DNA from: Caldisphaera sp.
Lineage (GTDB): Archaea; Thermoproteota; Thermoprotei_A; Sulfolobales; Acidilobaceae
DNA length: 43,938 bases
NCBI RefSeq assembly: GCF_023256325.1
Contig: NZ_JAGDXI010000035.1
Coordinates: forward strand, 1 to 43,938
Reading direction: 5' to 3'
In this document: piece by piece, positions 30,359-31,248 of the stretch
Layout: each line of letters begins with the position of its first letter
Position numbering within the stretch: the stretch's first letter is position 1
Position numbers and translations under genes: made by a program
The notes under the pieces: model-generated
Told to the model about the DNA's origin: nothing
Seen by the model: the letters and a program-made list of their open reading frames with translations, nothing else
Databases searched by the model: none

Positions 30359-31141
30359 TCATTCTCTCTTATATACACTTCCAGGTGTTAAAGATGCCCC
30401 TGCATCAACTGTTATTACTTGCCCAGTTATTCCGCTAGCTTCTTCGCTTGCCAAAAATGATACTAAAGATGAAACCTCATCTTCACTTGCTAATCTATTG
30501 CTTGGTATGAAAGAAAGGTAATTCTTTTCAGAGTCTTTATATCCAATTGAATCAAGCCATTCAAAATAGCTTTTTCCTAGCTTAGTTTCAATAAAACCTG
30601 GAGCAACAACGTTTACAGTTATATTATATTTTGCCATTTCTATTGCTAATGACTTCGCTAAACCTATCAAACCGGCTTTTGCTGCACTGTAAGCAGTTAA
30701 ATACTCAGCGCCATAAATTCCGGCTATGCTGCTTATGAAAATTATTCTTCCCCATTTCTTATTCATCATATTATCGATTAACAGTTTTGTAACATAAAAG
30801 CTTCCTGTTAAATTTGTCTGTATTTGCTTAAACCATGAATCATAAGTTAAATCAGCAAATTTAGAGGAAAAACCAACCCCTGCATTATTAACTAATATAT
30901 CAATTCCTCCATATTTATCCCTTATGTAATCTGCCATCTTTTCTACATCTTCTTTATTTGATATATCTGCTTTTATCATATCACCTTTACCATTTCTCGA
31001 TTTTATCAAATCTAATGTTGACTTTGCCTCGTCTTCTCTTTTCCTATAACTTATTATTGTAAAAATATTTTGAGAAGAAAGTCTTAATGCTATTGCCCTT
31101 CCTATCCCTCTATCTCCTCCAGTAACTAAGGCAAACCTCAT
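30359..31141 (-). CDS. Short-chain dehydrogenase/reductase, FabG-like
   Basis: A 260-residue classical SDR. Cofactor loop TGGDRGIG (7-14), NNAG (85-88), and the catalytic set N110, S138, Y151, K155 are all present, followed by PGFIETKL. It reduces a keto group or oxidises a hydroxyl with NAD(P)H/NAD(P); 3-oxoacyl reductase is the usual label but the substrate is not known. I place the start at ATG 31141, because GGTG (31151-31148) lies six bases upstream and the SDR fold begins there. A longer reading from ATG 31159 would start inside a structured RNA element. It is divergent from the hydroxyacyl-CoA dehydrogenase fusion gene. Its leader carries a K-turn-like element. Confidence 0.9.
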   Translation of the reverse strand: MRFALVTGGDRGIGRAIALRLSSQNIFTIISYRKREDEAKSTLDLIKSRNGKGDMIKADISNKEDVEKMADYIRDKYGGIDILVNNAGVGFSSKFADLTYDSWFKQIQTNLTGSFYVTKLLIDNMMNKKWGRIIFISSIAGIYGAEYLTAYSAAKAGLIGLAKSLAIEMAKYNITVNVVAPGFIETKLGKSYFEWLDSIGYKDSEKNYLSFIPSNRLASEDEVSSLVSFLASEEASGITGQVITVDAGASLTPGSVYKRE

Positions 31142-31148
31142 ATTAAAC

Positions 31149-31219
31149 ACCGGGGTCATGCAGCGTTTTCCTACATTACCCTCTCGGGTTCAGGTCCCGG
31201 ATTCCTAATCATACCCCAG
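31149..31219 (-). ncRNA. K-turn-containing structured RNA: C/D-box-like sRNA or leader of the SDR gene
   Basis: On the minus strand CTGGGGT (31219-31213) pairs with ACCCCGG at the other end (one G-U, bulged G excepted). Inside are a C-box-like ATGATTA (31212-31206) and a D-box-like ATGA (31159-31156) flanking GGGG/CCCC. They form a K-turn: three-base bulge TAT, tandem G-A pairs, a U-U pair, then U-A where the consensus has G-C, so both bases changed together. A D'-like CTGA (31193-31190) lies exactly 12 bases after the C box, the standard guide length; a weak C' (GTAATGT) lies 13 bases before D. A hairpin ACCC-GAGA-GGGT is also possible. Transcription from the palindromic TATA at 31233-31248 would start at the GGGG. 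The GGTG ribosome site of the SDR gene abuts the stem. Confidence 0.5.
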
Positions 31220-31232
31220 CTTTAATTAATTT

Positions 31233-31248
31233 TAGATATTAATATCTA
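31233..31248 (-). promoter_or_regulatory. Palindromic TATA element upstream of the K-turn RNA
   Basis: TAGATATTAATATCTA is a perfect 16-base palindrome containing TTAATATC. Its centre is about 23 bases upstream of the GGGG that would open the structured RNA, the distance expected between an archaeal TATA box and its start. It lies in the divergent region between the SDR and the dehydrogenase fusion genes, so it could also be an operator. Confidence 0.45.

Follow-up and report, generated by a model that had tools for sequence, protein, structure and literature searches.

Positions 31217 to 31152 on the minus strand of the window (the whole 43,938-nt stretch of Caldisphaera sp. DNA that was analyzed) form a C/D box sRNA directly upstream of an SDR gene. 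It is a small guide RNA gene of a known kind that occurs across a thermophilic archaeal order. Overall, it is highly probable that the element is an sRNA gene of the sR33 family which guides methylation of C50 in tRNAs and whose transcript very likely continues into the SDR gene.

Architecture of the element

In minus-strand reading order, the region comprises GGGG-UAU-GAUUA-GGAAUCCGGGAC-CUGA-ACCCGAGAGGGU-AAUGUAGGAAAACGCUGC-AUGA-CCCC-GGUG-UUUAAU-AUG, and the following features were identified.

31234 to 31247, no strand assigned: AT-rich palindrome AGATATTAATATCT, probable TATA/promoter position (putative promoter role)
31152 to 31217, minus strand: C/D box sRNA (sR33-like), 66 nt from stem to stem, kept in 5/5 genomes of the genus
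31214 to 31217, minus strand: 5′ strand of the terminal stem, GGGG (pairing above shuffled and slid controls, 24 sequences)
31206 to 31212, minus strand: C box AUGAUUA, in which base 6 is U and pairs with A1 of the D box (C6-D1 paired in 24/24)
31194 to 31205, minus strand: D′ guide GGAAUCCGGGAC, 12 nt, with predicted pairing to tRNA positions 47 to 56 and predicted C50 methylation (core kept order-wide)
31190 to 31193, minus strand: D′ box CUGA (sequence and alignment)
31178 to 31189, minus strand: short hairpin ACCC-GAGA-GGGU between D′ and C′ (sequence)
31172 to 31179, minus strand: degenerate C′ box GUAAUGUA, consensus GUGAUGA (alignment)
31160 to 31171, minus strand: D guide GGAAAACGCUGC, without a conserved target and variable within the genus
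31156 to 31159, minus strand: D box AUGA (sequence, alignment and pairing counts)
31152 to 31155, minus strand: 3′ strand of the terminal stem, CCCC (sequence and pairing counts)
31148 to 31151, minus strand: Shine-Dalgarno-like GGTG adjoining the stem (complement in own 16S rRNA, kept in 5/5 in the genus)
30359 to 31141, minus strand: SDR gene (PF13561/PF00106) with start AUG at 31141-31139 (domain match and start conservation)

An initial annotation of this DNA had described a GGGG/CCCC closing stem, ATGATTA and ATGA boxes with the tandem G-A geometry of a K-turn, and a CTGA sequence 12 bases after the C box. All of these were found in place on the minus strand; the tandem G-A residues are present in the window copy, and the guide (31205-31194) leads directly into CUGA (31193-31190). 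A tRNA gene at this locus was ruled out, with ARAGORN finding none there. The U-A at C6-D1, which had been read as a compensated replacement of the consensus G-C, was borne out among relatives, where this position is paired in all 24 aligned sequences (GC in 18, UA in 5 and GU in 1; unpaired in none). The five UA cases are those of the window's genus, in which the change was probably a single event. Across the same 24 sequences, pairing of the terminal stem exceeded that of both shuffled and slid controls. Binding of L7Ae, Nop5 and fibrillarin is established for C/D sRNAs as a class, and the C/D-box K-turn found here would bind these three proteins.

The short hairpin between D′ and C′ is capped by a GNRA-type loop. 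It reads ACCC-GAGA-GGGU in the window copy and UCU-GAAA-AGA in G004, one of the other genus members, which carry GAAA loops on shorter or imperfect stems. Compared with the consensus GUGAUGA, the C′ box (GUAAUGUA) is degenerate across the whole genus.

Family assignment and conservation

The only relevant match in Rfam was sR33 (RF01120), which aligned to the element from end to end with a score of 22.2 bits (E value, 0.031), below the gathering score of 37 bits for this family. In relatives from other families, sequences with the same D′ guide score up to 50.2 bits against sR33 (L013), and the homology of the window copy to sR33 was shown through these intermediates. Shared with sR33, besides the end-to-end alignment, are the position of the C box, the D′ guide (GGAAUC-GGGA) and the CUGA D′ box. 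In contrast, the window copy, in addition to its score, differs from sR33 in its D guide, its degenerate C′ box, the U-A in place of G-C in the K-turn and the small capped D′-C′ hairpin.

A leave-genus-out model, generated from 19 relatives outside the genus, was searched against the window together with the complete congener G003 (1.6 Mb). The window copy (E value, 2.3e−4) and its G003 ortholog (5e−5) were the only matches below an E value of 1, with the next best at 3.5. Since the model recovered no other significant site in 1.6 Mb, the element is not a chance occurrence. At the scale of the order, 154 of 197 genomes carried a match at an E value of ≤0.1, 99 of them below 1e−4, although this model included some of the genomes searched and its weak matches are no proof of presence. 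A pattern scan of approximately 85,000 species returned 32 matches, 19 archaeal and 13 bacterial. Nearly all of the archaeal matches had recognizable C, D′, C′ and D boxes; the bacterial ones, most of which carry another base in the guide, look like chance matches.

Within the genus, DNA matches cover the element in all four other genomes. The initial annotation had made its reading depend on conservation of the C/D boxes and stem in relatives that keep the SDR gene, and the element with its C and D boxes is kept in 5/5 genomes of the genus. When the window copy was compared with those of G001 and G002, 52 to 53 of 66 positions were identical within the element and 49 to 50 of 115 in the upstream flank; guide and boxes are kept in the genus while the upstream flank is not. 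The core of the D′ guide is conserved across the order.

Loss of the C′ consensus in the genus, coupled with a D guide that is variable and lacks a target, could be taken as signs of a decaying sRNA, degenerate in C′ box and D guide and preserved solely as a leader. This appears very unlikely, as all five species retain the C, D′ and D boxes, the D′ guide and the compensated K-turn pair, and the upstream flank is less conserved than the sRNA itself.

Predicted targets of the two guides

When the core of the D′ guide, GAAUCCGGGA, was compared with the structured RNAs of G003, it paired at 10/10 positions, one of them G-U, with nucleotides 47 to 56 in at least 11 tRNAs. The paired T-arm stretch is TCCCGGGTTC, found in tRNAs for Gly, Ala, Arg, His, Thr, Cys, Lys and others. 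In a control with shuffled guides, 5 of 300 matched anything in the G003 structured RNAs equally well. In each of the 30 genomes checked, tRNA-Gly had the same T-arm sequence. Following the N+5 rule, C50 lies opposite the guide base five positions upstream of the D′ box. The element thus shares a trait of the class, a guide of 10 to 12 nt (here 12) that ends at the D′ box and has an N+5 target in rRNA or tRNA (here tRNA), with methylation predicted. C50 of Sulfolobus acidocaldarius tRNA-Gly(CCC) is predicted by snoRNAdb and stated as observed in PMC7668247, which gives no sRNA name for the assignment. Genome G073 carries the same D′ guide.

Covariation between the guide and position 51 of tRNA-Gly was uninformative because both sides are invariant in the 30 genomes, and a double change in G022 and G030 was used instead. 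The guide of these two genomes, GAACTCGGGA, has two adjacent bases changed opposite an unchanged T-arm, and it still pairs at 10/10 positions with one G-U, which lies at G52 rather than at G53. Judging from these pairings, the sRNA most likely directs methylation of C50 in many tRNAs: the D′ guide would pair with T-arm positions 47 to 56 of many tRNAs, including tRNA-Gly, and direct 2′-O-methylation at C50. A specific role can in this way be predicted for Rfam family sR33, namely modification at C50 in many tRNAs, backed by guide changes that preserve pairing. In having one guide that fits a conserved tRNA stretch and another that is targetless, the element resembles the tRNA-targeting archaeal C/D sRNAs reviewed in PMC7994747, whereas its guide differs in matching the T-arm in no fewer than 11 tRNAs, always with a single wobble. 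The D′ guide was never perfect against the T-arm, with one G-U retained even after the two-base change. A perfect guide would hold the self-complementary sequence CCCGGG, which may be selected against.

The search for rRNA or tRNA complements of GGAATCCGGGAC proposed in the initial annotation found the tRNA T-arm at C50 but no full complement in rRNA. Specifically, a full complement of the D′ guide was absent from the 16S and 23S rRNAs of G003, the partial 16S and the 23S rRNA of the window's own genome (G000), and the flanking spacers. The best rival to the tRNA T-arm is the 23S site CCCGGGTTC. Targeting of 23S rRNA (AACCCGGGTTCA) in place of tRNA would draw on nine contiguous pairs, one of them G-U, that occur in both G000 and G003. 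However, the T-arm offers ten pairs, the invariant guide A that pairs with U47 in tRNA faces an A in 23S rRNA, and C50 methylation is reported in Sulfolobus; a 23S target is accordingly considered quite unlikely.

For the D guide (GGAAAACGCUGC), no credible target was found, and it is probably targetless. A candidate site with 11 pairs, three of them G-U, in the 23S rRNA of the window's own genome was rejected, as one G-U would occupy the position to be methylated and G004, G001 and G002 do not share the guide. A search for a target of the sRNA in the anticodon stem of tRNA-Trp was negative; in G003, the likely tRNA-Trp gave no match. A D guide with the sequence GCGTAACTTCG is common to other genera of the family (L183, L184 and L186), and its complement is absent from G003 rRNA.

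Two observations were made on the RNA genes used in these searches. The 16S gene of the window's own genome (L024:1-1790) is truncated at the start of contig C27 of G000 and carries a long insert, in which an open stretch resembles an intron-encoded endonuclease, along with smaller inserts. Among the tRNA genes of G003 (L027 to L105), several have introns, some apparently noncanonical; the latter include the likely tRNA-Trp (336644-336743) and a tRNA-Thr with an insert in the D arm.

Linkage to the SDR gene

The sRNA lies directly upstream of the SDR gene in 9/9 genomes, five from the window's genus (g1) and four from a second genus (g10). Every SDR ortholog of this group in the two genera is directly preceded by the sRNA; more distant SDR homologs of the family are without it, and elsewhere in the order the sRNA stands beside other neighbors. 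The D box contains another AUG in the SDR frame, at 31159, which was rejected as the start because its frame is lost in G003, G001 and G002; the gene therefore starts at 31141, where AUG is kept. The 3′ end of the 16S rRNA of the window's own genome (...GGATCACCTCCT) contains CACC, the complement of the GGTG ahead of this start. This GGTG directly abuts the stem in G000, G003 and G004 and is separated from it by no more than a few bases in G001 and G002. In g10, the SDR start codon falls inside the sRNA (G013, G022 and G030).

In archaea, 7% of C/D sRNA genes are located at ORF 5′ ends (Tripp 2017, as cited in PMC7994747), and this review describes lowered downstream reporter expression for such genes. 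The present arrangement, in which a coding gene is preceded at its 5′ end by an sRNA and, in g10, the start codon lies within that sRNA, resembles the overlapping cases in PMC7994747. It differs in that the sRNA of the window's genus ends just before the ribosome site and in that the link is kept in nine genomes from two genera.

The gene on the 5′ side of the sRNA is divergent, and the sRNA therefore needs a promoter of its own. With 10 bases between the sRNA and the SDR start codon, the divergent neighbor also means that sRNA and SDR gene most likely share one promoter and transcript. Of the TATA palindrome recorded in the initial annotation, the exact sequence AGATATTAATATCT is present, but its symmetry is absent in congeners, where only an A/T-rich, promoter-like position is conserved. 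From a start approximately 25 bases after this TATA-like element, which lies between the divergent genes, transcription would very likely proceed through the sRNA into the SDR gene; the SDR start codon follows the sRNA by 10 bases and has its own GGTG ribosome site. The sRNA would then be matured out of the SDR mRNA or compete with it. The initial annotation had proposed, as one of two readings, an sRNA gene read on into the SDR mRNA; the sRNA itself is strongly supported, and from the gene arrangement its transcript most likely continues into that mRNA. In this archaeal family, unusually, the sRNA most likely leads the transcript of a metabolic enzyme gene, an arrangement that is conserved in nine genomes and can be tested as an example of guide RNA and mRNA apparently sharing one transcript.

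The other reading was a leader switch, in which L7Ae bound to the K-turn blocks the adjoining GGTG and represses SDR translation, with the guide role secondary or lost. In keeping with this, GGTG lies at or within a few bases of the stem in five genomes (G000 to G004), the linkage of sRNA and SDR gene holds in 9/9 genomes, and L7Ae is described as repressing its own translation through a leader K-turn in S. acidocaldarius (PMC5539422). The likeness to that autoregulatory leader is a K-turn near the ribosome site in an mRNA leader, here with the anti-Shine-Dalgarno sequence present in the 16S rRNA of the window's own genome; the differences are that this K-turn is part of a guide RNA, that the gene is an SDR gene and that regulation is putative. 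However, no other part of the element is as well conserved as the D′ guide, which is kept order-wide, also where an SDR neighbor is lacking; this argues against a pure K-turn switch because such a switch needs no guide. A leader switch in place of a guide RNA is thus considered unlikely.

Alongside the favored reading of a guide RNA gene transcribed into the SDR gene, L7Ae control of SDR translation is possible, given the placement of the K-turn. A conserved dyad of guide RNA and enzyme, in which an sRNP assembling on the transcript as it is made would preclude SDR translation and vice versa, is an unlikely proposal. If true, either the supply of free L7Ae, Nop5 and fibrillarin or the demand for tRNA Cm50 would set SDR output.
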